Assembly (NCBI RefSeq): GCF_900177345.1
Contig: NZ_FWZT01000023.1
Span: forward strand, 1 to 64,000
Direction of reading: 5' to 3'
Origin: Pseudobacteriovorax antillogorgiicola
Lineage (GTDB): Bacteria; Bdellovibrionota_B; Oligoflexia; Oligoflexales; Oligoflexaceae
DNA length: 64,000 nt
Part shown: one piece after another, positions 13,314 to 35,078 of the stretch
How positions within the stretch are numbered: position 1 is the first letter of the stretch
Layout: the number at the start of each line of letters is the position of its first letter
Notes under the pieces: generated by a model
The model's database searches: none
What the model saw: only the letters and a program-made list of their open reading frames with translations
Told to the model about the DNA's origin: nothing
Position numbers and translations under genes: made by a program

Positions 13314-13328
13314 GGGGCTCTAAGCCCC
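13314..13328. terminator. Shared terminator-like hairpin between the M50-like gene and pgpA
   Basis: GGGGCT and AGCCCC form a 6-bp GC-rich stem with a 3-base loop in the 12-base gap between two convergent genes; it overlaps the pgpA stop codon. There is no long T-run on either side. Confidence 0.4.
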
Positions 13329-13826
13329 TACAATCCAATTCACCGTAAGAAAATCGAGAATCAAAATACCTAGCACAACAATCCCTGCTAGCAAGTCATC
13401 TAGTAAGGTACCGAAAGGACCATAAACTCCACGATCAACCCAGCCGATAAACAAGGGCTTCGTGATATCGAAGAGTCGAAACAGAGCAAATCCCACCAGC
13501 CATAGTTCCCACGATGGTGCGAAGAATGCGATCGGAATCGCCTGACCTGCCACCTCATCAATAACTATGCTCTTGTCGTCATGAGCATCCCAGAGGGTTT
13601 CTGTTTTTTTAATGACCCAGTAGGAAAAAATCGAAAAAACAAACAGCAGGCTGGTAACCACAAACCAAAATGGAATATTTCCTATGCTATGGCGAGCCAG
13701 ATAGTAAATGCCACTGCCCAAAGCCAAACCCGGCAGAGATCCCCACGTTCCTGGTGCTTTTGGCATCTGACCTAAGGGGTAACACGTTGCCAAAAACGTA
13801 AAGGTATTCATGGGCTTTTTGCTCAT
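13320..13826 (-). CDS. pgpA: Phosphatidylglycerophosphatase A
   Basis: The 168-residue membrane protein has the PgpA motifs GQMPKAPGTWGSLPG, DDKSIVIDEVAGQAIP and DRGVYGPFGTLLDDLLAG, whose acidic residues form the Mg2+ site. It dephosphorylates phosphatidylglycerol phosphate to phosphatidylglycerol in the inner membrane. Several hydrophobic helices are visible. Its ATG overlaps the stop of the epimerase gene (ATGA), so the two are co-translated. Confidence 0.93.
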   Translation of the reverse strand: MSKKPMNTFTFLATCYPLGQMPKAPGTWGSLPGLALGSGIYYLARHSIGNIPFWFVVTSLLFVFSIFSYWVIKKTETLWDAHDDKSIVIDEVAGQAIPIAFFAPSWELWLVGFALFRLFDITKPLFIGWVDRGVYGPFGTLLDDLLAGIVVLGILILDFLTVNWIVGA

Positions 13827-17494: not shown

Positions 17495-17507
17495 CGAGGG
17501 GAATCCA

Positions 17508-19778
17508 TTGAATTACGAAGAAAAAGCGCTGGAATATCACCAGCGAGAACCAGCGGGAAAAATCCAAACCCGTATCAGTAAGCCACTTGATAGCCAAGAA
17601 GATCTGAGCATTGCCTATTCTCCGGGTGTCGCAGGACCTTGTCGGGAGATTGAAAAAGACCCTGAAAACTCATTCAAGTACACAGGCCGTGCGAACCTTG
17701 TGGGAGTGATTTCCAACGGAACTGCAGTCTTAGGCCTTGGAAATATTGGCCCTCATGCCTCGAAACCTGTGATGGAAGGCAAGGCGATGCTTTTCAAAAA
17801 GTTCGCCGATATCGATGTCTTTGACATTGAAGTCGCTGCTGAGGACCCCGATCAGTTTATCTCTACTGTTAAAGCGTTAGAGCCTACATTTGGTGGTATC
17901 AATCTCGAAGATATCAAAGCCCCTGAGTGCTTCTATATTGAAGAAACGCTCAAAGAGCAGATGAACATCCCAGTGTTCCACGATGATCAGCATGGCACAG
18001 CTATCATTGCAAGTGCTGCCTTCATCAACGCCTTAGAAATCACCAATCGCGATATTGCTGATGTAAAAGTTGTGTTTTCGGGTGGTGGCGCTGCTGCCAT
18101 TGCCTGCGCTGACCTCTTTATCAAGCTCGGCGTGAAACCAGAAAATCTTCTCATGTGCGATAGCCGCGGGGTTATCCATGATGGACGCGACCCTGGCAAT
18201 CCGTACAAGGGCCGATTCTCACAAAAAACAGATCTTAGAACTTTGGAAGAAGCCCTTGTTGGGGCCGACGCCTTTGTCGGTGTTTCTGTCGCAGGTGTCC
18301 TCACACAGGACATGATCAAACCTATGGCCGAGCATCCGATTATTTTTGCCCTCGCCAATCCAGACCCTGAAATTCACCCGGATCTAGCCCGAGAGGTGAG
18401 ACCTGATGCTATTATTGCCACAGGACGAAGCGATTTCCCTAACCAAGTGAACAACGTCCTGGGTTTCCCGTTTATTTTCCGCGGCGCTCTCGACACCCAA
18501 GCCACAGGCATCTCAGATGAAATGAAGCTCGCCGCTGTGAAAGCCATCTCCAGCTTGGCTAAGAAAACTGTTCCCGAAGAGGTTCTTAAGGTTTACTCCA
18601 ATCCGGACGGCTACCAATTTGGTAAGGACTACCTCATTCCGAAGCCGGTTGACCCGAGGGTCTTGATGTATGTAGCTCCCGCCGTGGCACAAGCTGCTAT
18701 GGACTCCGGGGTTGCGCGGAAAAAGGTGAATATCGACGAGTATAAGTACCACATCGAAAGAATTCTTGGCCCCACAAGGCGGATCGTTCGAAAGCTTCGC
18801 CAGGGCATCGTGGCTGGCACTCAGAGACAAAAGAAGAAACCCAATATACTCCTTCCCCATGGCCATGACAGCCGTGTGATCAAAGCAGCAGCACAGATCG
18901 TCTATGATGGCGATGTAGACGTCACGCTTTTAGGGTCTCCCAAGAGTATTATTGAAAAGTCGGAATCACTAGGATTCCACGCTTTCGGTGAGAAGGTTAA
19001 TATTATCAACCCACTTCAAGACGATCGTACAGAGAAATTCGCTGATCAACTGTTTGAGCTTCGGCAACGGAAAGGAATTTCGAAATCCATCGCTATGGAA
19101 GCCATTCGCAATACCAATTACTTCGGTGCCATGTTGCTCAAAAACGGTTTCGTGGATGGTATGCTAAATGGTTTGGTAGAGCCATATGCAGCAAGCGTGC
19201 GGCCCATTCTCGAAGTATTGGGAACCACCACTTCCACTACTTTGGCGGGAACTCAGATGATCAGCTATCGGAAAAAGCTATACTTTTTCTCGGATTGCAC
19301 CATCAATGTCGACCCAACCCCAGAGCAGATGGCCTCTATAGCTTATAACACCGCTGAATTTGCCAAAGAATACACGGACGATCCCATCAAGCTTGCATTT
19401 CTATCGTTCTCAAGCTTTGGATCTAATCGTCACCCGATCACTCGAAAGATATCTGAGGCTGCTCGTCTCTTAGAGAACATGAATCCAGACTTCGATTTCG
19501 ATGGTGAGATTCAAGCAGACGTCGCCATCAATGTCGACCTCCAGAAAAAAGAATTCCCATTTTCTAATTTGAAGGGCCAGGCCAATGTCTTGATCTTCCC
19601 CGATCTGATGTCGGCAAATATTTCCTACAAGTTACTTGCTAATCTCACAGAGGCTAGCAGCTTCGGGCCTATTCTAAGAGGACCTCCTATGCCGGCTCAT
19701 GTCTTAGAACGTGGCGCTCGCGTTGAAGACATCATCAACATGGTCTATCTAACCGCCAATCAATGGGCGAGAAACTAA
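17508..19778 (+). CDS. maeB: NADP-dependent malic enzyme with C-terminal phosphotransacetylase-like domain
   Basis: The 756-residue protein starts at TTG 17508 after CGAGGGG. The N-terminal malic domain has IAYSPGVAGPC and the catalytic/metal region HDDQHGTAIIASAA; the NAD(P) domain has VFSGGGAAAIACADLF. From about residue 430 a phosphate acetyltransferase-like domain follows (PNILLPHGHD, GLVEPYAASVRPILEVLG), which in MaeB proteins is regulatory and binds acetyl-CoA. It decarboxylates malate to pyruvate with NADP+ in the cytosol. Length matches the MaeB fusion form. Confidence 0.95.
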   Translation: MNYEEKALEYHQREPAGKIQTRISKPLDSQEDLSIAYSPGVAGPCREIEKDPENSFKYTGRANLVGVISNGTAVLGLGNIGPHASKPVMEGKAMLFKKFADIDVFDIEVAAEDPDQFISTVKALEPTFGGINLEDIKAPECFYIEETLKEQMNIPVFHDDQHGTAIIASAAFINALEITNRDIADVKVVFSGGGAAAIACADLFIKLGVKPENLLMCDSRGVIHDGRDPGNPYKGRFSQKTDLRTLEEALVGADAFVGVSVAGVLTQDMIKPMAEHPIIFALANPDPEIHPDLAREVRPDAIIATGRSDFPNQVNNVLGFPFIFRGALDTQATGISDEMKLAAVKAISSLAKKTVPEEVLKVYSNPDGYQFGKDYLIPKPVDPRVLMYVAPAVAQAAMDSGVARKKVNIDEYKYHIERILGPTRRIVRKLRQGIVAGTQRQKKKPNILLPHGHDSRVIKAAAQIVYDGDVDVTLLGSPKSIIEKSESLGFHAFGEKVNIINPLQDDRTEKFADQLFELRQRKGISKSIAMEAIRNTNYFGAMLLKNGFVDGMLNGLVEPYAASVRPILEVLGTTTSTTLAGTQMISYRKKLYFFSDCTINVDPTPEQMASIAYNTAEFAKEYTDDPIKLAFLSFSSFGSNRHPITRKISEAARLLENMNPDFDFDGEIQADVAINVDLQKKEFPFSNLKGQANVLIFPDLMSANISYKLLANLTEASSFGPILRGPPMPAHVLERGARVEDIINMVYLTANQWARN

Positions 19779-19841
19779 TCCTATCCCCTATTGGGCAAGC
19801 CTTGCAGGCTTGTCAAAACCCTCCATAAGATATGATTAAAG

Positions 19842-19862
19842 AGGTGGCTTGTGCCACCTTTC
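19842..19862 (+). terminator. Terminator-like hairpin downstream of maeB
   Basis: AGGTGGC (19842-19848) pairs with GCCACCT (19853-19859) around a TTGT loop, followed by a short T-rich run, about 65 bases after the maeB stop. It lies inside the first codons of the longest frame of the next gene, which argues that the next gene starts later, at 19892. Confidence 0.5.
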
Positions 19863-19891
19863 ACCTTGTCAGCAGCAATCGATTAAGAGCC

Positions 19892-22726
19892 ATGCGTCTA
19901 TCGATGAATATCGCATTTCTTAAAAAACTATTGAAGATTCTAGGCTTGGCTTACCTTGCCTATGCCTTCACTATTCTCACCATTGCATTAGCATTGCCTA
20001 GAACTCCATGGCTGGAGTGGCTCAAGCAGGCTTTGGCAAAGCAAAGCCTCAGCCTTGAGTTGCATCACGTTGAGGTCCAAAACCTACGAGGCATCAAGAT
20101 CCCCCAGGGAGCGATTCGCCACTTGGATCGAGACCGCCCCTTCCTAGCATGGAGCAATATCTCGATCATGCATAATTTGTGGACATTGACTTTGTTCTAT
20201 ATTCAATTTGAGCTTAACGTTCAGGAGCCAGTCATAAGCTTAGCTGACATTCCCCCATCAAGCCCAAAAACAGAGGCCCCAGAACCTCCTCTGAAGCCAT
20301 TAGACACTATCAATATACCTCCGATCTTCGTTCCTATACCGACTTCCATCAAGTGGGAAATATCATCGGCAAAGGTCTTACTCGATCGTCAAAGCGAGCT
20401 TAATTACATCTCGATCCGTCAGCAAGTCGATGGCTTTCTTTCTAGTCTTACAACTCGAACTCAGGTCTCCGCAGCTCCACTAACTGTTGACACTCCCTCT
20501 CTAAAACTCGGCGCAAACCTTACATTTGACGTTATATCTGAGAATCTTTCCCAAGTTCGCAGCAAAACCGAAATTCTCGATCTGAGGATTGATTCCGATC
20601 AAGCAGAGATCAAGGGACTAGACTTAGAACAAGAGACCGTTATCTCACTTAACGAAAATAAAGAGCTAAACGTAGAGTCATTCGATTTGAAGCTATCGAA
20701 TATTTTCCAATTGAATGGGTCTCTTAAGACGAACCTTTCTCGCCTAAAAAATATTCCCATCTCACTCACTGGAGGTTTCCATAAATCCTTTGACAATATA
20801 GGAACATATATTAAAAAACCTCACATACCCCCAATCACAGGTTCCATGAGCATCAATGAACTCGACATATCTGCGGTCATATCTGAAAGTCATATCGATA
20901 CCCTAAAATCTCTCCAATTCAAGTCTTTTCGAGCCAATACCAACTTGAACATTGGAGCAATTGAAGGACTACCTCTTCATGTAGTGGGTCACGTGGGTAA
21001 ACTGCAATCTTCAGATTTAGGTCTGGCAGGTTCTCTAACTGTGGAGAATATATTTGAAAGTGCTTTCAAATTTTCTGTAGGCTCCCAACTAAAAAGTGCT
21101 GTTGCCAGCATCAAAACAAAAATTCCTGACTTGTCATCCACCCGTAGTCTAATGGCCCCCATCCTAAGGCGGATGCTGCCTCTCAATTTGATTCCCGATC
21201 GATTGGAGGGCAGCATCGACCACGATATCGTCGCAACTGTGGAATCTGCAAAAGAGCTAAGTGAAGTTACATCTCCGAATGACCTATCAAAATCTTCTAT
21301 CAAAAGCTGCGTCACGATATCAAAATTCCACCTAGACCTACCTTTAAATCAAACCCGGATCGAGGCACTTGAGACAAAGCTGACCCTTGCAAGTGATCTA
21401 GAGGAGTTAACATGGAACATCGACAGCAATATTGGCTCAGTTGCAAGCACCGTGCAGAACAAGACGTTCCAAGTCGCGAAGATAGCCCATTCCTCAAATG
21501 GATTTCATCGCTTCGATCTGAGCTTTAACCCAAAGAATTCCGTATCAAAACTAAATTCTGAGCTTCTTATTGGAAGAATAGAAGGTATTCAAGGAGCGTC
21601 ACTCTCAGACTTTAAGCAAGGAATCCAGATCAGACAAAAGAATCTTCAAACCGTATCCATAGATAAAGCCTATGCAAGTCTCGGTAGCCTTGGCGGTTAT
21701 GTGGAGTCAAAAGGCACCTTAGAGATTGTCAACAGCACCTTAAAGGATCTGGATGCTAGCTATTCACTTTCGATCGACTCGGCCCGCTCTTCCGCGATGG
21801 TCGAACAGATCCGCAGCCAAGGAAAGATTGAGACCCAAGGGACGATCAAGCTCTCCAATTTAAAGTCGGCAGTCCTTGATGGTTTCATTGATTTTAGATC
21901 GTTTCATCTTGAAGCTGGCCCAGCCTCAGCCCCACTAGTATCGGTACATGGTTTAGATGGTCATATTCCATATTCACAGACGATTAACTTCGACCTCAGC
22001 AAAGAAGACTACGCTTTAACTATTCCAAATGTGATTCAACCCTCAGCAAAACAATTGCTTTCATATAACGCCATGAGCGACAGTTTTCCAAAACGCGGTC
22101 GGCTAGGTATCGAAGCTATCCAAGGCAAAGGCATTAAATTGAAAGACATATCTCTAACCCCTGTATTGGAGCAAGGGAACTTAGCTATCTATGGCCTCAA
22201 TGGAGGGCTCCTAGATGGCAGCTTTTCTGGTGCCCTCAATCTAAGCTTCAATCCAAAGCCTCAAACTCTTGATATGAGATTTACAATCAATAATCTTAAT
22301 TCACATCGACTCCTTGAAGCTTTCCCCAATATCTTACGTCGATTGCAAGGCTGGTCTTATACAGATAAGCCCGAAATTTCTGGCAATATGAATCTAGCGT
22401 TAGATCTGGAAAACCGTGACATCAATGGCAGCATGGAGATTACCGAAATCGGTAAGGAACAACTTAAGTCGATCCTTTTCTTCCTCGATCCAGAAGGTCA
22501 AGACCCAGGTTTGAATTCAGCACGACAAGCTCTCGTAGCTAGTGATATCAATTATGTTTCGATTCCCATTAAACATGGCTTTTTAGAGGTTGATATTGGT
22601 CTCAGTGTTCTTGCAATTCCAGTTCCCTTGCCTAAGATGAGTGGTTTTCCTGTTAGCCAAATTATTGCTAATTTTACAAGTTCTGACGAAGCACCTATTG
22701 CTCAAGGAGCTATTGATGAAATCTAG
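19892..22726 (+). CDS. YdbH/AsmA-like inner-membrane protein, predicted intermembrane phospholipid transport factor
   Basis: From ATG 19892 the product is 944 residues; an alternative ATG is 19907. One N-terminal transmembrane helix (FLKKLLKILGLAYLAYAFTI) is followed by a long beta-rich periplasmic region of repeated short strands. The ending (YGLNGGLLDGSFSGALNLSF, then an NLNSHRLLEAFP segment) resembles the C-terminus of YdbH/AsmA-clan proteins. Those form hydrophobic-groove bridges carrying phospholipids between the two membranes. The next gene encodes a DUF1318 lipoprotein, as in the E. coli ydbH-ynbE-ydbL operon, which strengthens the call. The stop overlaps the next gene's first codons. 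Confidence 0.72.
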   Translation: MRLSMNIAFLKKLLKILGLAYLAYAFTILTIALALPRTPWLEWLKQALAKQSLSLELHHVEVQNLRGIKIPQGAIRHLDRDRPFLAWSNISIMHNLWTLTLFYIQFELNVQEPVISLADIPPSSPKTEAPEPPLKPLDTINIPPIFVPIPTSIKWEISSAKVLLDRQSELNYISIRQQVDGFLSSLTTRTQVSAAPLTVDTPSLKLGANLTFDVISENLSQVRSKTEILDLRIDSDQAEIKGLDLEQETVISLNENKELNVESFDLKLSNIFQLNGSLKTNLSRLKNIPISLTGGFHKSFDNIGTYIKKPHIPPITGSMSINELDISAVISESHIDTLKSLQFKSFRANTNLNIGAIEGLPLHVVGHVGKLQSSDLGLAGSLTVENIFESAFKFSVGSQLKSAVASIKTKIPDLSSTRSLMAPILRRMLPLNLIPDRLEGSIDHDIVATVESAKELSEVTSPNDLSKSSIKSCVTISKFHLDLPLNQTRIEALETKLTLASDLEELTWNIDSNIGSVASTVQNKTFQVAKIAHSSNGFHRFDLSFNPKNSVSKLNSELLIGRIEGIQGASLSDFKQGIQIRQKNLQTVSIDKAYASLGSLGGYVESKGTLEIVNSTLKDLDASYSLSIDSARSSAMVEQIRSQGKIETQGTIKLSNLKSAVLDGFIDFRSFHLEAGPASAPLVSVHGLDGHIPYSQTINFDLSKEDYALTIPNVIQPSAKQLLSYNAMSDSFPKRGRLGIEAIQGKGIKLKDISLTPVLEQGNLAIYGLNGGLLDGSFSGALNLSFNPKPQTLDMRFTINNLNSHRLLEAFPNILRRLQGWSYTDKPEISGNMNLALDLENRDINGSMEITEIGKEQLKSILFFLDPEGQDPGLNSARQALVASDINYVSIPIKHGFLEVDIGLSVLAIPVPLPKMSGFPVSQIIANFTSSDEAPIAQGAIDEI

Positions 22727-23273
22727 AATTTGGCTCACATTTCTATTCGTGCACTCTGGATCATGCACTATAAAATTTGATGTTACGTCCCAGCGAACAG
22801 CCTTAGAGAATCAAATTTTAGGCACTCAGAAGGAACTCGACCAGGATGTTGTACTCATCAGCTCTGTTCGCGCTGTCGATCAAGATGGCGAGATAAAAAA
22901 AATTGAGGCATCCGACCTTCATCAGAAGGCGGTTCTGGCAAAGCAAAATCAGGCATTTAATCAGGATGATATTCAAGAGTTCAAGGACAAGCAGTTTATA
23001 GGTGAAGGTCCAGCGGGTAAAATTATGATTCTCCCTCCTTCCATAGGACTTGTCAGCCAGGCTTCGAATCGAGAAACGAATATCATCTCTATTATTCTTG
23101 CCGAAGAAAATCGTGATCGTAAGATCATCTGGCGAAGAGTTATTACTATGAACCCTGAGCTTAATTCAGAACATTTTGATAGTGTTGTTGAGACCTTTCA
23201 GAAACAAATCTATGAGAAGGCCAAACCGGGCCACTGGTTTTATAGAAATGGGCGTTGGATGCAAAAACCTTAA
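22716..23273 (+). CDS. DUF1318 (YdbL-like) putative lipoprotein
   Basis: The real start is most likely ATG 22716, with CAAGGAG seven bases upstream, inside the 3' end of the previous gene; this gives 185 residues. The hydrophobic N-terminus ends in HSGSC, so Cys17 may be lipidated, although Ser at -3 is not the usual residue. The body has RTALENQILGTQKELD, then FKDKQFIGEGPAGKI and ILAEENRDRKIIWRRVI, which match the DUF1318 pattern of IGE..G and ENxDR. In E. coli YdbL works with YdbH and YnbE. This protein may combine the lipoprotein and YdbL roles. The start of the giant gene that follows lies inside its 3' end. Confidence 0.75.
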   Translation: MKSRIWLTFLFVHSGSCTIKFDVTSQRTALENQILGTQKELDQDVVLISSVRAVDQDGEIKKIEASDLHQKAVLAKQNQAFNQDDIQEFKDKQFIGEGPAGKIMILPPSIGLVSQASNRETNIISIILAEENRDRKIIWRRVITMNPELNSEHFDSVVETFQKQIYEKAKPGHWFYRNGRWMQKP

Positions 23274-26200
23274 CTTGGTATTGCTATTGATAGCAATGAC
23301 TCTAGCTTCTTGTGTTGCCAACAAGAAGATCGATATTTCTATGCCCAGCACATCAAAGGAACCTTATCAAAAATTTTTTTTCCTCACGGCCGATCCCATG
23401 CAATCCCAGGACCCAGAACCAAGCTCTCGGGGCATTTTCTATTCGGAAAATAGTGCCACTAATTTCGATATATTTCTTCTTTCTGGAAAGTCTAAAAGAC
23501 GCATCACCAAGCACAAGTCTGACGACTTTATGCCAAGCTTCTCTGAATCATACAAGATCCTAGCATTCCTCTCACGAAGAGAGGATGCCAAGGGAGATAT
23601 CCACTTTAAAGCCATTGGTAGTATTTCTGTAACTGATGAATTCCATCTCAAGCTGCCAGACACAGAGGAGATGCATCCTAGCTGGTCCGCAGATGGAACA
23701 AAATTTGTTTTCGCCAGTAAAGGTTTCGGCCAGAGCGATCCTAAGATCATGCTGTTTGATTGGCAAAGTAAAAAAGTTCAAGATACAGGTCTGCTGGGAT
23801 TTCATCCTCGGATAAACAACGACGGGGATCGCATCGTATTTCAGCAAAATGCTCAAATACACGAGTACAACCTAAGAACCAAACAACACAATATTCTAAC
23901 TCAATCAAGGGGTCTCAATAGCCAACCAGATCTTTCTCCTGATTTCAAAAAGCTGGTGTTTCGTCGCATAGACCATGACACCAACCGAGATGGACTTATT
24001 AATGGCAATGACCACGGAGCGCTCTGGCTCCTAGATCGCGACCTAAATCTGGAGTTTGCGCTTACCAGTGATGACGACAATCCAAGCCAGGGTAGATTCT
24101 TTAATGATCGAATTCTCTTGAGTTTCACTCGCGGAACCGCTGCCAATCTGGGACTGATTCCTGAGAGAGGGCAATGGCAAGCAATATATGATCACCATAT
24201 CTATATTCCTGAAAAAGTACGTCATATTGCAATTAACCAGGGAGACGATAGTCTTAAAAATCTCTACCTACGATTTCTATGGGCCATGCAAACGCCTCAA
24301 CAAGAAGTAGCAAGATTCACTCTAGAAAAGCTCGTTGCAGAAAATCCCAACTACGAAATTTGGCGACCCTATCTCGACAGCTTCTATAAATTTCCAGAAA
24401 TCAAGAATCATCAAGGACTCTCTAAGAGATTTCAGTCTGCATGCAAAAACTCTACGCAAGACTCCTTTTTCGCGGCATCCTGTCTTATTCTTAGTTCTCT
24501 AAACAACTACTTAAATAATCAAGGACTCAACAAAGCTAGGCAGAGTCTAACAGAAGTAATTCAATCTACGGATCAGGAACCTTATTGGAAGAGATTCCAA
24601 CTCCTTGCTTTGAAGCTCTCATTTGCCATAGATGCCAAGCTTAGCACGGCTGATGCAGCTATGCTATCGTTGGACCAATATCTTGTAGCAATAGAACAAA
24701 GTAATCCCGAACTATCACGAGAACTATCAGAATATGCAATCAAAAACCATATCAACTCGATAACACGAAGCATTGATCAAAAGATCAACAGTAAGTGGTT
24801 ATCTGGCACTTTAAAAATCAGCCGATATCAGAACTCAGATCAAAAAGAAATATTTCTCCGCCATAATCAATTGCTAGCCCTGATGGATCAGTATAAAGAT
24901 CTATCATATATCTATATCAAGGCTCTTGAGAAGGCACTAGAGCTTCCCGACCTTCATACGTTCTCTGACTCCTATCTTAAAGTGTTCCAGCAAGCAGCTC
25001 CATTTCTTGCTAAAGAGCCATCGCAATTTATCCGCGAGGAGGGCCGAGTTCTACACGAGTTAGTGTTTCGTCGGGTAGGCGACTACTATGTTAAGAGTCT
25101 AGAAATTGCCTCCGCGATCAAGTTCTACCGCAAGGGCATATCGATATTCCCTCGCTCAGTTGCCCTTCATAAAAGCCTTATCGATGCCTACGGCATGATG
25201 AAGAAGATAGATGATATCAAAGAAAGGTACATGGCAAAATCACCCGATTGGTTAAGTCAGTATCTCGCTCTTTATGTCGATACCTATAGCATTGACCAAA
25301 CACAAGATTTAGAAGAAAGACTCGAAATCATCGAAAGCCTTATTCCTACCCTAGAGAACATCGTCGAAATCAAGCCTCAGCAAGCAGATCTACATCAAAC
25401 CTTGGGCTGGCTCTACTATCAACACGATCTCTGGACCAAGAGGAAGTCGGGGCCAAGTGCCTGGTATCGCTTGAAGTCTATGCTTTTTGGCTTCTTCTCA
25501 CAATTCTCAGAAAGGTTTACTTTAGGAACTGTTCAGGCCATTAGAAACTACCAATTAGCCTTAGCTAGCCTCCCACCCGATCACCCCAATCGGGCTGCTT
25601 TGCTTCAGAATATCGGTGAGGCTCAGTTTCAATGGAAAAACTATTCCCAAGCGTATTCATACTATAGCCGGCGAGTCGCTTGGTTAGATCGAGTTCCTTT
25701 TCGCAGCTTAAGAGAAGAGGGACAAATTTATCTGAATTATGGGCGCTCCGCTGCCCAGACCAAGCAATATCCCATCGCCGAATCGGCATTCCTAAAAGCA
25801 TCGCAGGCATTTCAAAAGATTGGCAGACAGGATCAAAGACTTCAAATTCAGCAGTATCGGGCTCTCAATTTCACTGACCAGAAGAAGTATATGCAAGCTA
25901 TTGAGGTATATCGAAATATTCTAGATCTTCCTCTACCACGTGAAACTAGAGTCATTGTGCTTACAAATCTAGGGATGAATCTCTACTACTCCAAGAACTA
26001 CACTAAGACCATTGAAACTCTAAACCAGGCAATCGGGCTAGTGGATGATGCTCCTCGGGAAGAACACAGCGATGATATCGCGGTAAACTTAGGTGGAAGT
26101 TCTACCGAAGCTCAGGGCTTTTCTGGTCTTCTAAGGAAAGCTCAGATTCAAACTTACTTGGCCAAGGCCTATCTTAAAAAGGGAGACTATTCTTCCACAA

Positions 26201-29200
26201 GCACTTGGCTGCGGCGCAAGATTCAGTCCCTAAAATCTCAGGAGAAACAAACCAATAAGTCATATATTGATTATCGTACAGTTGCCAATAACCATTTAGC
26301 CTATGTCCTGTTTCTAAGTGGAGACTATGCAGAAGCGGCAAAGACGTTCTGGATAGCCTATGATCTCGCTCAGAAAATCGAAAACCGTGAGCTTGCTTAT
26401 AGTAACGGACTTAATCTACTAGTCTCACTTGCCCGTTGGCAAGCACTTGGCAAGCCTCTGTCCACGGAGGCAACAGCATGGGCACAAAGTGTCATCAATA
26501 ACTTTAGCAGCCAACGATTGATTCGTGCCTATGATCAGCTCCTTAGCAGTCGTGGCCCTATTCCTCATCAGGATCTAGTAAGCTTCCTAAGTGAATCCAT
26601 AGATTCCGCGACACAAGAACCAAATGGCCGACTTATTCAACAAGAGCTAAGAGACACTTTTGTTGGCAAGGGAGAGGCATGGACTTACTTGCTATTAGAA
26701 GATTTACATCACGAAGCCTACTTGGATCTAGCAGAAACAAAGTCCCTAAATAGCTTAAGTTTCATACGCTTGATCGTTGCCTACCTTGACCAAGTATTCT
26801 TACAAAGTTTTCAAAATATCGAACCTAGCCAAGGATTTGAGGCCTATCAAAAGCACCTTTTATTGCGTCGGCAGATTTTAGGACGATTCTTACGTATCAA
26901 CAATGAACGACTAAATATCCAATCTAAAGACATAAATAGATTGTCACCTCAAGAAGGTGAACTCGTTGTTGGCTTCCTTGGTTCTAGCCCCATGTACATG
27001 GTGTACAAATCGGACCGAAAGACTGGCACACAGAGACTTGAGAGATTTGCAAACCTCTCTCAAGAATTTGATTTTAGTAGCTACAAGCGGGTCCACCTAC
27101 TCAGCGATAAGCAAAGCCATCTGCTCTATCCTCATCTAAAGAAAATGCTGCCATCGACTCCTATAATTTGGTCTGGTGGAGTTCAAGTTCCTCGCACTGT
27201 CGATGTACGGCTATTTAACCGTATCTCTTGGTTGGGTGATCCGAGTCCTGACATTATCAAAGCCAATGAACATCGAGAGTCGATACCAGTAAATGCTGAT
27301 CAACCCAAAATTCTCTATATTGCGGAACCATTAAACTTGAGCCCTTCTCTGAGTGCAGTCAGCTCAACGCTAGATCTTCAGGAAACTAAAAATATTGACC
27401 TGCTTACATATACCAGTCGCATCGATGATCACTTGGATATCCTCGCACACGACTTGATACGGGAACATCTAGGAGCAAATACGGTTGTCGTGGCAGAATC
27501 CTCAGATACCCTAGGGCAATTCTTCCAGTCATTTGCTAATCAAGGCCTTCAAGATGCGATCAACACGCCAGGCATCACGATTCTGGGCCTACCTGGGACA
27601 CCCAAAAAGCTCATTGCAGAACTGGCTCCTAAGCTTGCTTACGATCAGAAACAAGCTCTTGAAAATCGCCTGGTTTTTGCAAATGTGCTGGACGATGTTA
27701 GTCTTCAGTCTGAAATTCTCCTCCAACTACGGGCAAAGAGGTCACAATCCAGGCAGTATACGGGGGCATACTATTACCAAAAAAAGATTCTCAATCTTAT
27801 CGAAGACAGTGCTGATGAGCTTGACTTAGCTGATGAATATCTCAATAGTGGAATTCTTGCCCTAAGGGCTAAGAGCTTCAAGAACTCCCAAGAATACTTT
27901 GATAAATCTCTTGCTATATATCAAGACAATGAAGACACCTATCAATCAGCCGTTGTGATTAAGAATATGGCTCTTTTAGTGTTTGAACAAAAAGCTTCAG
28001 AGAAAGGTGTCGAACTTTTGAAAAAATCTCGTCAGCTGTTTCTTGAGGATGATGATCAAGAGGCTGCAACAGAACGGCTTCTCGACATGGCTAATTATAC
28101 AAGGGAATCCCTCAATGACTTTTCTCAAGCTCTCATATGGTATCGACAGGCGCTAGATGAGTTTAAGAAACAGGATTTTGAACAAGGGATCATCAGAGCA
28201 AATATTGATTATGCAAATACCCTAATGGCCGTAGGATCTATCAAACGAGCCATTACAGTACTCGAATCCCAAGAGGATTATATTGATGCGGATGACGAAC
28301 CAACTCTTTGGTTAAGAAATGCACAAATCCTTCTTAATGCATATTATCGAGCCTCTCTTTTCCAAGAGGCGATCAACTTACATAGTAAAGCCAAGAACAT
28401 TTTGGAAAGTATTGAATCTGAAAATTTGCGAAAACTGTTAAGCTTGGATCTTGCCAATGTTCATGCTCTAGTTCTGGCGAAAATAGGCCAAGAAGCCACT
28501 GCGGTGAAAACCCTGAATCAGAGTATCGAAAAGGCACGTTTGCTGGAAAAACCCAGAAAGGTTGCTCAGCTCCTTTCAAACTTGGCTTATATTAAGCGAA
28601 AGATGGGTGAGCTAAGGCAATCGGTTGCTCTTTTCAAAGAAGCTCTTACTATTGATACACAAGAGCGTGATGAATCAGCCATAGCCTTTGACTACCGCAA
28701 CCTTGGCATTAGCTTCCTCTACTTAGAGGACTATGAACAAGCGTCGCAGTTCCTAAATCGTGCAAGAAAAGACAGCGAACGCTTAAGTCTTGCCTATAAC
28801 CAGGTTTACTCCCTCGTTGGCCTCGCCGAACTAGCTTTGGCTAGGCAGGAACCTGAGAAGGCGATATCACATTATCAAAAGGCCCTAGAGGTTTCCCAAA
28901 AGTCCTACTTAAGGCAATTCATCTGGCGTTCCTATGCTGGCCTTGCCAGCACCTACGATCGACTCAAACAGTGGCAAATCGCTGAGTCTTACTACGAAAA
29001 AGCGCTTGAAATAGTCGAAAAACTGAGAGGCAGCCTTTCGAACTTAGAAAACTCTTCTGGTTTTCAAGAAGAGCGCTCCGTTCAGCGAGTATACGAAGAT
29101 TTTATTGTCAATTTGTCTCAACAAGGGAAGTTTAAGAAAGCTTGGCAAATCAGCGAACGATCACGATCACGGTCATTGATCGATAGTTTATCTAATACAT

Positions 29201-30405
29201 CGATACGTGAAAACTCTGAAGAAGCCAGTCGCTATGCGGACTTTACTGAGCTACTCGATCAATTACAAAGTGTGATGGAGCGCAGTCCCAATCCTGAGCT
29301 AAAGTCCCAGATCGATAGCATCACCAAGAAAAGGCAAAGCCTTCTTGAAAAAATCAAAAAGGAAGATCCTAGACTCTATAACATAGTCACAATCAGTAGT
29401 ATCGGCTTGGATGAGGTCACGGCCTATCTTGACCCACAAACTGCTTTGATCGAGTACATGATTACAAGTGGTCATCTAATCGTCTGGATAATTAGTGAGA
29501 AGGGTATCTTTGGAGCCATACGAACTCTCCCCAGGGATCGTATCGAGTTAAGGATCAAACAGTATCGAAAAATTCTCCAAAGCCTAGGTGACCTCAGTTT
29601 TATCGGTCAGGAACTATATGCTTGGCTCCTTGAAGACTGGCAGTCAGAGTTCCAAGACTACCAGAACCTAGTTATCGTTCCTCACGGTTCACTACACTAC
29701 TTACCCTTTGCTGCACTCCCTGAAAGTAGAGAGCAATATTTGATAGATCGTTTTCGTATCACCTACTTAGAGAGCGCAACTCTTGCTCGCTTTGCAAAAC
29801 ACTCAGATTTAACTAGCTCGCCCACAATCAAGGCTTTTGGCAACCCCGATCGAGGAAAGGACTTGGATTTGCCCTTTGCTGCCAAAGAAGCGCAGACCAT
29901 CAAAAGGTACTTTCCATCAGCACAGGTGTTAGTAGGTGGTAAAGCCACAGCCAATTCATTTCTATCGAGTCACGAGGCAGATTGGATTCATATAGCATCC
30001 CACGGGGAGTTTCATCCATTCGATCCAGGGCGAAGCCGCTTGTTGCTAGCTCCCAGCGGAGGTAGTAGCGGCGACATTCTCGTAGATCAAATCCTAAGTA
30101 CCAGAATCAACGCGGAGCTTGTAACCCTGTCTGCCTGTGAGACAGGACTCGGTGATATCAAAGGCGGGGATGAAGTTGTCAGTTTTAACCGAGCGTTCTT
30201 CCAAGCAGGTGCCAGATCGATTATTAGCACTCTATGGCGCATTGATGATGTTGCAAGCGCATTAACTATGAAGCGTTTCTATCGTTATCTTTCAGAGGGT
30301 AATAATAAGAGGGCTGGCTTGCGGAAAGCTCAGCTGCTAACCAAAAGCTATTTCCCACATCCGGCTTATTGGTCATCATACCGCTTGATCGGGTCCTATC
30401 GCTGA
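23248..30405 (+). CDS. Giant lipoprotein with TolB-like propeller, two TPR blocks and C-terminal CHAT peptidase domain
   Basis: I place the start at ATG 23248 (MGVGCKNLN), giving 2385 residues. The signal peptide ends in a clear lipobox LASC with Cys22. Residues about 90-270 carry TolB/PD40-type repeats (EMHPSWSADGTKFVFASK and similar). About 335-1220 are TPR-like helices. About 1240-1500 is a domain without helical repeats, possibly a degenerate CHAT. About 1505-1950 is a second, canonical TPR block. About 2057-2385 is a CHAT caspase-like domain with His2252 (HIASHGEF) and Cys2297 (LSACETGLGDIKGGDE), both intact. CHAT domains are cysteine peptidases that TPR parts often control. Lipidation places it in the envelope. 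It is third in the operon, overlapping the DUF1318 gene by 26 bases. Confidence 0.85.
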   Translation: MGVGCKNLNLVLLLIAMTLASCVANKKIDISMPSTSKEPYQKFFFLTADPMQSQDPEPSSRGIFYSENSATNFDIFLLSGKSKRRITKHKSDDFMPSFSESYKILAFLSRREDAKGDIHFKAIGSISVTDEFHLKLPDTEEMHPSWSADGTKFVFASKGFGQSDPKIMLFDWQSKKVQDTGLLGFHPRINNDGDRIVFQQNAQIHEYNLRTKQHNILTQSRGLNSQPDLSPDFKKLVFRRIDHDTNRDGLINGNDHGALWLLDRDLNLEFALTSDDDNPSQGRFFNDRILLSFTRGTAANLGLIPERGQWQAIYDHHIYIPEKVRHIAINQGDDSLKNLYLRFLWAMQTPQQEVARFTLEKLVAENPNYEIWRPYLDSFYKFPEIKNHQGLSKRFQSACKNSTQDSFFAASCLILSSLNNYLNNQGLNKARQSLTEVIQSTDQEPYWKRFQLLALKLSFAIDAKLSTADAAMLSLDQYLVAIEQSNPELSRELSEYAIKNHINSITRSIDQKINSKWLSGTLKISRYQNSDQKEIFLRHNQLLALMDQYKDLSYIYIKALEKALELPDLHTFSDSYLKVFQQAAPFLAKEPSQFIREEGRVLHELVFRRVGDYYVKSLEIASAIKFYRKGISIFPRSVALHKSLIDAYGMMKKIDDIKERYMAKSPDWLSQYLALYVDTYSIDQTQDLEERLEIIESLIPTLENIVEIKPQQADLHQTLGWLYYQHDLWTKRKSGPSAWYRLKSMLFGFFSQFSERFTLGTVQAIRNYQLALASLPPDHPNRAALLQNIGEAQFQWKNYSQAYSYYSRRVAWLDRVPFRSLREEGQIYLNYGRSAAQTKQYPIAESAFLKASQAFQKIGRQDQRLQIQQYRALNFTDQKKYMQAIEVYRNILDLPLPRETRVIVLTNLGMNLYYSKNYTKTIETLNQAIGLVDDAPREEHSDDIAVNLGGSSTEAQGFSGLLRKAQIQTYLAKAYLKKGDYSSTSTWLRRKIQSLKSQEKQTNKSYIDYRTVANNHLAYVLFLSGDYAEAAKTFWIAYDLAQKIENRELAYSNGLNLLVSLARWQALGKPLSTEATAWAQSVINNFSSQRLIRAYDQLLSSRGPIPHQDLVSFLSESIDSATQEPNGRLIQQELRDTFVGKGEAWTYLLLEDLHHEAYLDLAETKSLNSLSFIRLIVAYLDQVFLQSFQNIEPSQGFEAYQKHLLLRRQILGRFLRINNERLNIQSKDINRLSPQEGELVVGFLGSSPMYMVYKSDRKTGTQRLERFANLSQEFDFSSYKRVHLLSDKQSHLLYPHLKKMLPSTPIIWSGGVQVPRTVDVRLFNRISWLGDPSPDIIKANEHRESIPVNADQPKILYIAEPLNLSPSLSAVSSTLDLQETKNIDLLTYTSRIDDHLDILAHDLIREHLGANTVVVAESSDTLGQFFQSFANQGLQDAINTPGITILGLPGTPKKLIAELAPKLAYDQKQALENRLVFANVLDDVSLQSEILLQLRAKRSQSRQYTGAYYYQKKILNLIEDSADELDLADEYLNSGILALRAKSFKNSQEYFDKSLAIYQDNEDTYQSAVVIKNMALLVFEQKASEKGVELLKKSRQLFLEDDDQEAATERLLDMANYTRESLNDFSQALIWYRQALDEFKKQDFEQGIIRANIDYANTLMAVGSIKRAITVLESQEDYIDADDEPTLWLRNAQILLNAYYRASLFQEAINLHSKAKNILESIESENLRKLLSLDLANVHALVLAKIGQEATAVKTLNQSIEKARLLEKPRKVAQLLSNLAYIKRKMGELRQSVALFKEALTIDTQERDESAIAFDYRNLGISFLYLEDYEQASQFLNRARKDSERLSLAYNQVYSLVGLAELALARQEPEKAISHYQKALEVSQKSYLRQFIWRSYAGLASTYDRLKQWQIAESYYEKALEIVEKLRGSLSNLENSSGFQEERSVQRVYEDFIVNLSQQGKFKKAWQISERSRSRSLIDSLSNTSIRENSEEASRYADFTELLDQLQSVMERSPNPELKSQIDSITKKRQSLLEKIKKEDPRLYNIVTISSIGLDEVTAYLDPQTALIEYMITSGHLIVWIISEKGIFGAIRTLPRDRIELRIKQYRKILQSLGDLSFIGQELYAWLLEDWQSEFQDYQNLVIVPHGSLHYLPFAALPESREQYLIDRFRITYLESATLARFAKHSDLTSSPTIKAFGNPDRGKDLDLPFAAKEAQTIKRYFPSAQVLVGGKATANSFLSSHEADWIHIASHGEFHPFDPGRSRLLLAPSGGSSGDILVDQILSTRINAELVTLSACETGLGDIKGGDEVVSFNRAFFQAGARSIISTLWRIDDVASALTMKRFYRYLSEGNNKRAGLRKAQLLTKSYFPHPAYWSSYRLIGSYR

Positions 30406-30409
30406 ACAA

Positions 30410-32584
30410 TCACGCAATTTTTACAATAGCACGATCAGCACCACCGCTTTCACCGCGCAGTATAGCTTCACGAGGTGTGAACTTCAGATTACCGCTCAGC
30501 AATTTCTGAGCCTTATCATTGGAGCTTTGAACTTGGAAAATAAGGTGGCAAGCCATGTCTCCTGGATCAGCGTTGACCAAAGTCAAAACTTTGGCTTTGG
30601 CACCATCAAGAGTTACGACCTTGTCACTATCCGTAGCTTGATCACCGGAAGCATCTTCGGGTTTAAGTGGGATTGGGGCTTGAGCCTTTTGGACTTGCAA
30701 AGGTTTTCCAGACTTGATGGCTCCTTTGACTTTCTTTAGCAGCTTTTCAGCTCTGTCCTTAACAACCGAATCATGCTGCACCGCTTCCTCAAGGGGAGGT
30801 TGCGCACCATCCATATCGCCAGCTCTAAGATGAGCCAAACCTAGATTGTAGGAGACAATAGCATAGATATCCTTGCGGGTGTCCGGGATCGCAGCAAGGG
30901 TTGTCCGATACTGCTGAATTCCTTCGTTCACCATATCACACCGAGCCATGGCCACGGCTTGATTGTTCATGTAGGAAACCACATTTTCCATAGCTTTAAG
31001 CTGAGCCATGATTGTCTTCGCAGTAGCTGAATCACCAGCATTCAGAGCAACCTTTGCTGACGTTTCCTTAACACGCTCAGAATCAGGATCTAGGTCTTGG
31101 GCTTGTTCAATAGTTTCCTGTGCTTTTTCATCATTACCCATCTCAGAATGAACTTCAGCTATCTGACAAAGTCGCTCCAGATTCATAGGCGCTAAAGCTT
31201 GCGCCTTTTCAAAGCACTTCAGTGCAACATCGAACTCGCGAAGGTTCATCATAGTCTTGCCAAGGAGATTTAATATAAAAATTGAATCGCCCGCATGCTT
31301 GATCGCTTCAATACCAAAATCTCGTGCTTTCTCGAACTCTTTTTGTACATAGGCGAACTCAGCTTCCATGACTTCTTTCGGCCCGATTTTGATCGTGCTA
31401 TCCGCGATATATCGCTCCTTAATCTCCTGCGCCTCCTGAACCTTCTTTTCATTGAGAAATTGCCTCATTTTCCGTTCCATAGACGATTGCTCTGTGGGCA
31501 AGCGATCTTGCTGAATCGTCCATATGATTGCTTTGGTAAACTCATCTTTCTTAAGGGGCTTTTTTATCATGGTGGCAACCCCCATCTCTTTGACAAAGGG
31601 GATATCCTGATCTTCAATCAGAGAACTAAGAAGCACTATGGGGACTGATTTTTTCGACTCTTCTTGAACTTTTTGCAGGAACAGTGGGCCCGTTAGTTTA
31701 GGGATTCGCCACTCTTGGATCACAAGATCGATATCCTCGTTCTCTTGCACAGCCTGAGTTCCAGCCTCTCCGTCATTGCAGACGACAACGTCTTCAACAC
31801 CCATTTCCTTAAAAGCATTGACCACCTCATTGGCGACACTATCATCATTATCTACCAAAAGAATTTTTTTCAGACCCAGAAAATTATAGCCATCACTTTC
31901 TACCTGGTCGAGAGACTGGCCTTCAAAATAGTCTGCGAGATAAGACTGAATCTTATCTTCCTGATTGCTGTCTATCACCTTTATTTGCTTGAGTACCGAC
32001 AGCGCTTCTTCCGTTTGCCCCATTTTAGCTAGGGGAGGAACAGTATGAAACATCTGATCGAGATGACCGGGATACAAGTCGAGAAGCTTCTTTTCAAAAA
32101 CCAAGAGCTCTTGATATCGTTCTGCTTCCATCATGTGTGTTCTAAGGTAGTGGGCTGCTAATAAACTGCCATTCCAATCGACAGCTTCAAAAGTTTTGAA
32201 AAGGCCGCTCAACTCGCTTGTCAATGAGTCCTTAGTGAAGGGCTTGGAATGATAAGAGAGAAGCCCTCGTTCGAAAGCATCAGGTAATACCTCCTGCTCT
32301 GATTCTTCTAGCAAGAACGAGACTCTCAAGTTTTTCAAAGCAGGATGATTACAGAATAGATCGAGCAACTTCATACCATTTTCTTGCTGATCTGCCATCA
32401 AAGGAGTGACGATCCAGCGAATGGGCTCGACTTCCATCATCTCGACAGCTTCCTTAATGCCAGCAACACCGTTCACGTCGCCAAAGCCAAGGCTTCTGAC
32501 CACTTCAGCAAGCAGTGTACGCGCAGCACCGGATGGATCGACAACGATCACCTTGCCATCTTTTTCTTTGAAGAAACTTTCCAT
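30410..32584 (-). CDS. Two pseudo-receiver domains plus TPR repeats (signalling or scaffold protein)
   Basis: From ATG 32584 the product is 724 residues; the longest frame uses a TTG four codons earlier. Two CheY-like domains are seen, at about 1-125 and 240-370. At the phospho-acceptor position the first has Pro61 (WIVTPLM) and the second has Glu (LVIQEWRIPKLTG, aligned with [13 protein letters not shown] of the CheY in this window). Neither can be phosphorylated normally; Glu may mimic the phosphorylated state. TPR-like helices follow from about 380 to 610, then a C-terminal domain. It is convergent with the CHAT gene, five bases away. Confidence 0.78.
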   Translation of the reverse strand: MESFFKEKDGKVIVVDPSGAARTLLAEVVRSLGFGDVNGVAGIKEAVEMMEVEPIRWIVTPLMADQQENGMKLLDLFCNHPALKNLRVSFLLEESEQEVLPDAFERGLLSYHSKPFTKDSLTSELSGLFKTFEAVDWNGSLLAAHYLRTHMMEAERYQELLVFEKKLLDLYPGHLDQMFHTVPPLAKMGQTEEALSVLKQIKVIDSNQEDKIQSYLADYFEGQSLDQVESDGYNFLGLKKILLVDNDDSVANEVVNAFKEMGVEDVVVCNDGEAGTQAVQENEDIDLVIQEWRIPKLTGPLFLQKVQEESKKSVPIVLLSSLIEDQDIPFVKEMGVATMIKKPLKKDEFTKAIIWTIQQDRLPTEQSSMERKMRQFLNEKKVQEAQEIKERYIADSTIKIGPKEVMEAEFAYVQKEFEKARDFGIEAIKHAGDSIFILNLLGKTMMNLREFDVALKCFEKAQALAPMNLERLCQIAEVHSEMGNDEKAQETIEQAQDLDPDSERVKETSAKVALNAGDSATAKTIMAQLKAMENVVSYMNNQAVAMARCDMVNEGIQQYRTTLAAIPDTRKDIYAIVSYNLGLAHLRAGDMDGAQPPLEEAVQHDSVVKDRAEKLLKKVKGAIKSGKPLQVQKAQAPIPLKPEDASGDQATDSDKVVTLDGAKAKVLTLVNADPGDMACHLIFQVQSSNDKAQKLLSGNLKFTPREAILRGESGGADRAIVKIA

Positions 32585-32761
32585 GCTTACTCGCAAATTT
32601 CAATCGTTTCGTCTATCGGCACCGCGATTGTAAAGTTGAAGGGCGCGGTAGGGATCAGGTAGCTAAAGTACTGAAATAAATAACCTTATATTCCCTTGTC
32701 AGGCTTATGATGCTAGTTTACCCTGATTCTAACGAAGCAATTTAACTCTAGGTAGAACCCT

Positions 32762-33754
32762 TTGAAAAGCCTTGTCATAAACACTCTCAAAATCGCAATA
32801 GCTTTCGGCCTTATCACATATCTCATCAGAACTGATCAGCTCGACTTCTCCCAAATGGGTAAAGTTTTTTCTATGCCAAGCTTGGGTATTACCATGTTTT
32901 TGTTCTGGATCGTTGGCCCCTTGCTCCTTGGCTCATTTCGCTGGCGACTACTCTTGCATGGAGCAGGCTATCAGATCACCTGGCCGCGAGCCATCCGCCT
33001 ACACCTGATCGGCTTTTTCTTTAACACAGCCATGCCGGGAGCTGTCGGGGGAGACCTGATCAAGGTACTGTATGTGATTCGAGATAATAAGCACATGGGT
33101 AAAACACCTGCTATCATGAGCGTATTTTTAGACAGACTAATCGGTCTTAGTGGCTTGTTCATTGTTGGCTTGCTCGTTGCTATCGCCAGCTATCCGATCA
33201 TTCAAGGGCAAGCCGCACTGATATCCATCGTCATTACCCTAGCGGTTGTAAGTCTCGGCATACTAGCCTTCTTTGCCGCTGCACTCTACGAGTACCGAGA
33301 CCGCGACCCTTTCGACTCCCTACTATCGAAGCCAATCCCCGGATTCAGCCCACTACGAAAAATCTATGGTAGCCTGCGGCTCTACCGAAACCATCGCACC
33401 CTGATCCTCAAGTGCCTCGGCCTCTCGATCCTGATACAGCTATTCTCAGTGCTAGTTTTTGTTCTCTTCACCAGAGCCATTATTCCAGATCAGAACCCTC
33501 AGTTTGGGACTATTGCTACCATTTATCCTGTTGGAATGTTTACTGTCGCCCTTCCCATTGCTCCTGGAGGGCTTGGGGTTGGTCATGTAGCTTTCGATCG
33601 TCTCTTCGAAATCATCGGCCATAGCCAAGGTGCTAGTGTCTTTAATGTGTTCTTATTAACTCAGATGGCCCTCAACCTACTGGGTGCAATCCCCTATTTG
33701 AGCCTCAAGAAGGAAGAGCCTGTTAATGAGATTGACACAGCCATAAAAATCTAA
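32762..33754 (+). CDS. UPF0104 / AglD-type flippase-like integral membrane protein
   Basis: The 330-residue protein has about eight hydrophobic helices and the family segments LGSFRWRLLLHGAG, FFFNTAMPGAVGGDLIKVLYV and PGGLGVGHVAFDRLF. This family (lysylphosphatidylglycerol synthase transmembrane region) includes proteins proposed to move lipids or lipid-linked sugars. The start is TTG 32762; the upstream AGGTAGAACCC is a modest binding site. It sits between two pseudo-receiver/TPR genes, transcribed away from the first. Confidence 0.82.
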   Translation: MKSLVINTLKIAIAFGLITYLIRTDQLDFSQMGKVFSMPSLGITMFLFWIVGPLLLGSFRWRLLLHGAGYQITWPRAIRLHLIGFFFNTAMPGAVGGDLIKVLYVIRDNKHMGKTPAIMSVFLDRLIGLSGLFIVGLLVAIASYPIIQGQAALISIVITLAVVSLGILAFFAAALYEYRDRDPFDSLLSKPIPGFSPLRKIYGSLRLYRNHRTLILKCLGLSILIQLFSVLVFVLFTRAIIPDQNPQFGTIATIYPVGMFTVALPIAPGGLGVGHVAFDRLFEIIGHSQGASVFNVFLLTQMALNLLGAIPYLSLKKEEPVNEIDTAIKI

Positions 33755-33845: not shown

Positions 33846-35078
33846 ATGGGAATCGAACGCGTTCTTCTTTTAGATGACAACACTTCGAATACTCTGTTCT
33901 TTGAAATGTTACTCAAGGATATGGGAATGAAGGAAGTCGTGTCTTCACCGACTGGGGACGATGCGCTGATCCTAGCCGACAAGAAGCACGTTCAGTTTGT
34001 TATTTGTTCATGGGAACTAGCTGGGATGCCTGGGACCATATTTATCCAGAAGCTACGGGCCAAAAAAAGACGCAAGTATATTCCTTGCATCATCTACTCC
34101 AAACGTATGGAAGAACAGGAGGTTCGCCTGACTCAAGAGCTGGGCTTTAAAAATATCCTATCGATGCCTTTCGAAAAGGATAAGGCCATCGCCATGATCA
34201 ATGAAATTATCGAACACGAAAACAATATTGACCCCAAAGAAGTTGCCATCCGAAAGATCGAAATGTATTTGCAGGATGGTAAGCCCGGCGAAGCGTTTAA
34301 GATGTTCAACGATGATCTCTTCAAGCCTGGTCCGTTTCGATCTCCAGCATTGGTTGCTGCTGGCGAAGTGTTCATGGCACTTTCCAAATACGACAAGGCT
34401 GAAAAGTGTGCCGATGATGTCTTGGAGCGTATCCCCGATAATTATCGGGCTCTCCAATTGAAGGCTAAACTGCACTCAAGGCGCGGTGAACATGATCAAG
34501 CTATTAACATACTTAAAAAGTTGATGAATCAATCCCCGAAAAACCTCACCACCCGCGTCAACCTCGGAGCAGCCTATGTCGCAGCTGATCGATTTGACGA
34601 GGCCAAGCAAGTATTTAACGACGTTTTAGACATTGACCCTGAAAATCAAGCTGCCAAAGACCAAATGGCCACGGTCGTTTTCCAAGAAGGTGACTTTGGC
34701 TTAGCAGAGCAGCTGATTGCCGAAACAGAAAATGGCAACGAACTCGCTAGAATTTTCAATAATATTGCTATTTCTCAAGTTGCCGAAGATAGTTTCGACG
34801 AAGCTATCCAAACCTATGAAAACGCTATCCGACTCCTTGCCGATAAGACACGCCTTTACCTGCTTCAATACAACTTGGGACTTGCCTACCGAAAGAAGGG
34901 CGACTTGAACAAAGGCTTGGAAACTCTCGCCACTAGCTATTTTGACAATCTTGAATTCGAAAAGGCCTATGTAGCAATTGCTCGGATCTATAAGGAAATG
35001 AAGAAAAAGGGCTTGACGCCAGACGCCTCGATTATTAATGAGGTCAAGAAGAAGCGAGCTACTTCTAAATCTGCCTAG
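33846..35078 (+). CDS. Pseudo-receiver domain fused to TPR repeats
   Basis: The 410-residue protein begins with a CheY-like domain (about 1-120: RVLLLDDNTSNTLFFEML). At the phospho-acceptor position it has Ser (FVICSWELAGMPG) instead of Asp, so it should not take a phosphoryl group. The rest (about 140-400) consists of TPR repeats (ALVAAGEVFMALSKYDKAEK, LLQYNLGLAYRKKGDLNKG). GGTGAGG precedes the ATG. It resembles the 724-residue protein on the other side of the UPF0104 gene and is probably a paralogue. The hydrolase gene follows after 11 bases. Confidence 0.82.
   Translation: MGIERVLLLDDNTSNTLFFEMLLKDMGMKEVVSSPTGDDALILADKKHVQFVICSWELAGMPGTIFIQKLRAKKRRKYIPCIIYSKRMEEQEVRLTQELGFKNILSMPFEKDKAIAMINEIIEHENNIDPKEVAIRKIEMYLQDGKPGEAFKMFNDDLFKPGPFRSPALVAAGEVFMALSKYDKAEKCADDVLERIPDNYRALQLKAKLHSRRGEHDQAINILKKLMNQSPKNLTTRVNLGAAYVAADRFDEAKQVFNDVLDIDPENQAAKDQMATVVFQEGDFGLAEQLIAETENGNELARIFNNIAISQVAEDSFDEAIQTYENAIRLLADKTRLYLLQYNLGLAYRKKGDLNKGLETLATSYFDNLEFEKAYVAIARIYKEMKKKGLTPDASIINEVKKKRATSKSA

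Follow-up and report, generated by a model that had tools for sequence, protein, structure and literature searches.

A predicted exported TPR-CHAT protein encoded beside AsmA-like and DUF1318 genes, a candidate protease-scaffold of the bacterial envelope

A predicted exported CHAT protein in an AsmA-family operon

We analyzed a 64,000-nucleotide stretch of the Pseudobacteriovorax antillogorgiicola genome, hereafter the window, in which an operon on the plus strand encodes an AsmA-like protein, a DUF1318 lipoprotein and, as its last gene, a giant protein ending in a CHAT domain (Table 1). We propose that this giant belongs to an AsmA-family envelope locus as its exported protease-scaffold component, acting by the coupled mechanism described below; our confidence in this reading is evenly divided, and the case for it is mostly one of guilt by association. 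The operon setting suggests a protease for outer-membrane construction rather than for phage defense or cell death. A first-pass annotation of this DNA had suspected unusual biology, and this suspicion was justified, with envelope biogenesis rather than defense as the setting. The annotation had also presented the giant as a lone odd protein against a background of defense and death pathways. This does not seem to be the case, as it is found once per genome, in an envelope locus beside AsmA-family and YdbL-domain genes, in several phyla.

How bacteria match phospholipid delivery to the growth of the cell wall and outer membrane is a question for the field as a whole. In model bacteria, the link that we found between AsmA-type bridges and envelope proteolysis is indirect, coming from overexpression effects on NlpI-Prc and LbcA-CtpA. 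With a predicted caspase-like protease encoded in one operon with an AsmA-family protein, in several phyla, this link becomes directly testable, and part of the CHAT family would move from defense and the cytosol to envelope biology. A search of open-licence papers returned no description of CHAT together with AsmA, DUF1318, or YdbL.

Table 1 Features of the operon in the window
Feature	Position	Strand	Basis
AsmA-superfamily protein of 964 aa with an N-terminal TM helix and then a long beta meander	19832..22726	+	
Predicted lipoprotein, 185 aa (SGSC, Cys17), conserved VTSQRTALENQ segment ahead of a DUF1318 (YdbL-like) domain	22716..23273	+	PF07027
Giant predicted exported protein: SPII, propeller, TPR, (degenerate CHAT1), TPR, CHAT2	23248..30405	+	
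Signal peptide and lipobox LASC (residues 19-22)	23248..23313	+	Sequence; Cys22 is the predicted lipidated residue
TolB/PD40-like beta-propeller, residues ~60-330	23425..24237	+	PF07676, E 4.7e-9; TIGR02800, E 1.2e-14
First TPR/helical region, residues ~520-1050	24805..26397	+	tblastn conservation in relatives
"Unknown" middle at the position of CHAT1, residues 1215-1500, predicted dead and highly decayed	26890..27747	+	Homology of relatives
Second TPR region, residues ~1521-1990	27808..29217	+	TPR_12 and others
CHAT2, predicted caspase-like protease domain with intact dyad, residues 2120-2383	29605..30396	+	PF12770
Predicted catalytic His2252 codon (IHIASHGEF)	30001..30003	+	Alignment with relatives
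Predicted catalytic Cys2297 codon (LSACETG)	30136..30138	+	Alignment with relatives

Export signal and domain layout of the giant

The reading frame of the giant is open from its ATG to its stop codon, with a product of 2385 aa, and an alternative TTG start at 23176 would merely extend it. Its N-terminus (MGVGCKNLNLVLLLIAMTLASC) combines a basic n-region and a hydrophobic core with a LASC lipobox, in agreement with the lipoprotein first proposed; the export signals of the giant and its relatives were assigned by eye and by pattern. The residue at position +2 after Cys22 is Val, not Asp, which would fit outer-membrane sorting under the E. coli rule. Relatives in the Oligoflexales mostly carry lipoprotein signals, and those in the KSB1 phylum mostly carry ordinary signal peptides. 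As some relatives carry the latter, lipid anchoring is not essential to the family. Judged from these signals, the giant is rightly described as exported and is probably lipid-anchored.

Given that export signals are found again and again in the family, a start downstream of the signal is unlikely, and a cytosolic giant made from such a start is scarcely credible. The gene does overlap the preceding one, and Met17 within the signal could in principle initiate translation, but homologs from several phyla carry export signals, and a propeller of the TolB type is a typical feature of periplasmic proteins. The size and anchoring had been called atypical; this stands against textbook CHAT proteins but not within the family, which spans 2150-2880 aa and in which large size and export are normal.

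The proposed TolB-TPR-TPR-CHAT layout was recovered, with a PD40 propeller and several TPR blocks preceding the terminal CHAT domain. The propeller belongs to the same PD40 fold family as TolB, which is periplasmic, but it falls far below the TolB equivalog cut-off (54 bits against 343 for TIGR02800). It is plausible that the propeller and TPR parts act as a sensor or tether, as had been suggested.

The C-terminal domain, CHAT2, matches Pfam PF12770 (clan CD) with an E-value of 3.5e-61 and 207 bits (cut-off 24) over profile positions 4-289 of 289. Alignment with relatives places the His and Cys of an intact dyad exactly at the residues first singled out, and CHAT2 is thus predicted to be a CHAT peptidase with both catalytic residues. 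It is the sole CHAT of the 7.3-Mb genome, and it is the best conserved part of the giant, at 39-45% identity compared with 30-33% for the second TPR region (f7 relatives).

The middle of the giant had been left as "unknown". In KSB1 giants, Pfam recognizes two CHAT domains, the first of which, CHAT1, reaches an E-value of 3.7e-32 and has the His-Cys dyad in 0 of 35 rows. The middles of nine Oligoflexales giants align with this KSB1 CHAT1 (hhalign 99.1%, E 7e-19); an earlier hhalign comparison of the Oligoflexales middle with CHAT2 gave an E-value of 0.007 only, and the case for CHAT1 is made solely through the KSB1 homologs. By these alignments, the middle of the relatives is a degenerate first CHAT domain without the dyad. 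The window giant's own middle had no direct match to CHAT profiles (hhalign, with leave-out controls), and its structure model, of low confidence (pLDDT 63), had no significant PDB match. The "unknown" label thus gives way to a decayed CHAT in the relatives, and the window's own stretch is taken as CHAT1 by position within a protein homologous as a whole, not by direct similarity.

The AsmA-like protein and the DUF1318 lipoprotein

The 964-aa protein of the window has no Pfam match of its own. Fifteen of 25 same-locus homologs match AsmA (PF05170, best E 7.4e-21), and among E. coli proteins the family HMM matches AsmA (7e-18) and TamB (2e-8), with no match to YdbH. The structure model (pLDDT 74.5) has a helix at residues 16-54 followed mostly by strands, and it fits an AsmA-type bridge without proving one; Foldseek returned only generic beta-rich matches to it (TM ~0.1). 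To our knowledge, a transport role has been shown for some AsmA proteins but not for every one. The window genome carries separate TamB matches, so there may be redundancy of the kind seen in E. coli. Specific membership in the YdbH family was rejected, as PF11739 was found in 0 of 56 genomes and hhalign to YdbH gave E-values of 0.12-0.18.

The DUF1318 gene is present as a single copy in the window genome. Its product aligns with E. coli YdbL (hhalign E 1.4e-6), and its Cys17 is invariant in 13 aligned sequences; the alignment of YnbE with this lipoprotein is confined to the signal-peptide stretch. Overlaps between neighboring genes, of 11 bp for the AsmA-like and lipoprotein genes and of 26 bp for the lipoprotein and giant genes, are suggestive of translational coupling.

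A phospholipid bridge between the membranes of E. coli is proposed to consist of YdbH and its partner YnbE, an outer-membrane lipoprotein (PMC8593681, PMC12977461); their interaction is described in PMC12977461 and the ydbH-ynbE-ydbL locus in PMC8593681. That locus is like the operon of the window in that a small lipoprotein and a DUF1318 domain come after an AsmA-superfamily gene, in the same order and on the same strand. It is unlike it in that YnbE and YdbL are separate proteins, there is no CHAT/TPR protein, and the AsmA-like protein of the window is not recognized by the YdbH profile PF11739.

Distribution of the locus

Loci were recovered from genome contigs with a profile of the small lipoprotein; a scan of the contigs with the whole giant as the query gave no matches. 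In the order to which the window belongs, DUF1318 occurs in 14 genomes, always as a single copy and with the propeller protein encoded immediately downstream. The closest named relative is Pseudobacteriovorax sp. DT_89, the others being Oligoflexales bins (DT_89 is our L080). In the KSB1 phylum (that of genome G058), 59 of 82 genomes carry a single DUF1318 lipoprotein gene, and the giant lies downstream of it at 35 of the 39 loci sampled. The locus is also present in two Deltaproteobacterial bins (L108 and L109), with an AsmA-like gene detected in one. The order of an AsmA-like gene, a DUF1318 lipoprotein gene, and a predicted exported giant is therefore conserved across phyla. Nitrospinota, Myxococcota, and some other loci encode the DUF1318 lipoprotein without the CHAT giant, and thus the lipoprotein can exist without CHAT. 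At three loci (L164, L169, and L171), the giants are shorter (1618-1831 aa), and two of these three retain just the first CHAT-like domain.

CHAT domains are rare in the window's order, with 16 matches in 43 genomes: 11 in the giant gene, 4 on contig fragments fitting the giant, and 1 elsewhere. This sole CHAT outside the operon lies at G012:C66:11940-12611 (L200). In the KSB1 phylum, by contrast, CHAT genes outside the giant are common, and most of them form a separate clade in the CHAT2 tree (97/98). Fine placement in this tree is unsafe owing to rows with very long branches, and several "other" rows are short copies of operon genes.

These distributions bear on whether the giant is an effector of defense, death, or competition. 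Known TPR-CHAT proteins act with CRISPR, as in Craspase, and PADLOC does match the giant, by a generic TPR model and in the TPR part only. However, the giant is predicted to be exported, is present in one copy at a position conserved over phyla, has partner genes of the envelope and housekeeping flanks, and is separated in the tree from most other KSB1 CHATs. A role in defense or death is unlikely, and we regard an effector of this kind as very improbable.

Variation within the family

Three states were observed: CHAT2 with the dyad (the window and most relatives), CHAT2 without it, and a propeller-TPR protein without CHAT. The dyad is kept in 31 of 41 rows, a count that includes one truncated row and one gene counted twice. 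It is lost in G037, G042, G013, and a set of KSB1-phylum proteins, and G007 has no recognizable catalytic motif; by locus, the losses are L043-L046, L153, L161-L163, L166, and L181, with L046 lacking a recognizable motif. Within the genus-level group g10, the dyad is intact in G041 and not in G037, G042, and G013. CHAT2 domains have, as read from these alignments, repeatedly been converted to pseudo-proteases.

Five loci (L047-L051, in G002-G005 and G015) pair the same AsmA-like gene with a propeller-TPR protein of ~1000-1170 aa that has no CHAT. At four of these loci, the small lipoprotein is ~85 aa long ("IDRQTVLELEASG") and has no DUF1318 domain; DUF1318 and CHAT thus tend to be missing together within the order. 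Since these CHAT-less versions adjoin the same AsmA gene, the constant part of the family is a predicted exported propeller-TPR scaffold, and the protease is optional. Proteolysis cannot be the core function in all members, as the dyad is gone in about a quarter of them and CHAT is absent from some close relatives.

This variation raises the alternative that the giant only tethers or organizes the AsmA complex without proteolysis, its CHAT domains being structural leftovers or peptide-binding modules. The uniformly dead CHAT1, the loss of the CHAT2 dyad in about a quarter of cases and even inside a genus-level group, and the retention of the operon position by CHAT-less forms would all fit such a scaffold. 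Against it, the dyad and its surrounding motifs are kept in the window's lineage and in most relatives, and no part of the giant is better conserved than CHAT2. We consider a non-proteolytic scaffold unlikely, while giving it real weight.

Proposed mechanism and comparison with known systems

Starting from the gene order, domains, dyad, and export signal, we infer the location, docking, proteolysis, client, and switch of the protease-scaffold that we favor. The AsmA-like protein would be anchored in the inner membrane and form a beta-groove bridge moving phospholipid between the membranes, with the DUF1318 lipoprotein serving the outer-membrane end, in the manner of YnbE/YdbL with E. coli YdbH. 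Anchored through its own lipid, the giant would dock on the bridge or the outer membrane through its propeller and TPRs, and the dead CHAT1 and the TPR superhelix may form a regulatory frame. On a change in bridge state or lipid flux, CHAT2 would cleave an envelope client, either a bridge component or an enzyme of cell-wall or outer-membrane assembly, and thereby keep the growth of the outer membrane in step with the rest of the envelope. We are least sure of the proteolysis itself, the client, and the switch.

The activity of two complexes of a TPR lipoprotein with a protease, LbcA-CtpA of P. aeruginosa and NlpI-Prc of E. coli, goes down when phospholipid transport rises, and that of CtpA is reduced by overproduced TamB, YhdP, or YdbH (PMC12569750). 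These complexes share with the proposed system an outer-membrane TPR lipoprotein and a protease with activity tied to phospholipid transport (PMC12569750). They differ in being separate polypeptides not encoded with an AsmA gene and in using C-terminal processing serine peptidases instead of a CHAT cysteine peptidase. By this analogy, the operon of the window, with a TPR-lipoprotein-protease fusion beside an AsmA-family gene, would look like a direct coupling of the two processes.

Csx29 of Craspase and HetF, another membrane-associated CHAT protein (PMC8406250), also combine TPRs with a CHAT that has the His/Cys dyad, but they are found in the cytosol or at the inner membrane, whereas the giant is predicted to be exported and has a propeller, a pseudo-CHAT, and an envelope operon. 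A parallel in architecture may be drawn with the helical repeats joined to an active caspase-fold domain in separase, which also has a pseudo-protease partner domain. Separase is eukaryotic and nuclear, however, and its two domains are adjacent, whereas those of the giant are separated by TPRs. One KSB1 CHAT2 weakly matches Peptidase_C50, below the cut-off.

CHAT and gingipain-type peptidases both belong to clan CD, as does PorU, the sortase-like peptidase of the type IX system. CHAT2 might accordingly mature or sort exported or surface proteins like PorU, with the AsmA-like protein aiding surface delivery instead of lipid transport. The shared clan speaks for this, as does the AsmA-superfamily T2SS protein GspN, which is reported to take part in bringing lipoproteins to the surface (PMC12802150). 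The absence of secretion genes at the locus and the DUF1318 domain, which points to a locus of the YdbH-YnbE-YdbL type, stand against it, and we judge a sorting peptidase to be improbable.

If the favored protease-scaffold reading is extended, the locus could represent a separate class of envelope system, a protease coupled to a lipid bridge and conserved over several deep-branching phyla, in which pseudo- and active CHAT domains paired within a single exported polypeptide sense the state of an AsmA-family bridge and cleave a client in order to control outer-membrane growth. We put this forward tentatively, as a possibility more doubtful than the reading that it extends.

Genomic surroundings of the operon

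In the window, the operon is flanked by metabolic or housekeeping genes, with no defense genes around it, and an Rfam scan of the 64 kb gave no match. Directly upstream on the same strand (16067-19778) are genes for an S13 D-Ala-D-Ala carboxypeptidase and a malic enzyme-PTA, which could share a transcript with the operon; the malic enzyme-PTA gene is upstream in G001 (L032) too. Within 10 kb are genes for phosphatidylglycerophosphatase A (13320-13826) and a protein with a lysylphosphatidylglycerol synthase TM region (32762-33754), two lipid-related genes that are perhaps there by chance. Two response-regulator-TPR proteins are encoded just past the end of the operon (30410-32596 and 33846-35078). 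In the KSB1 phylum, a UTP-glucose-1-phosphate uridylyltransferase or an MscS-type channel recurs upstream of the AsmA-like gene (L147, L159, and L161; L156 and L176).
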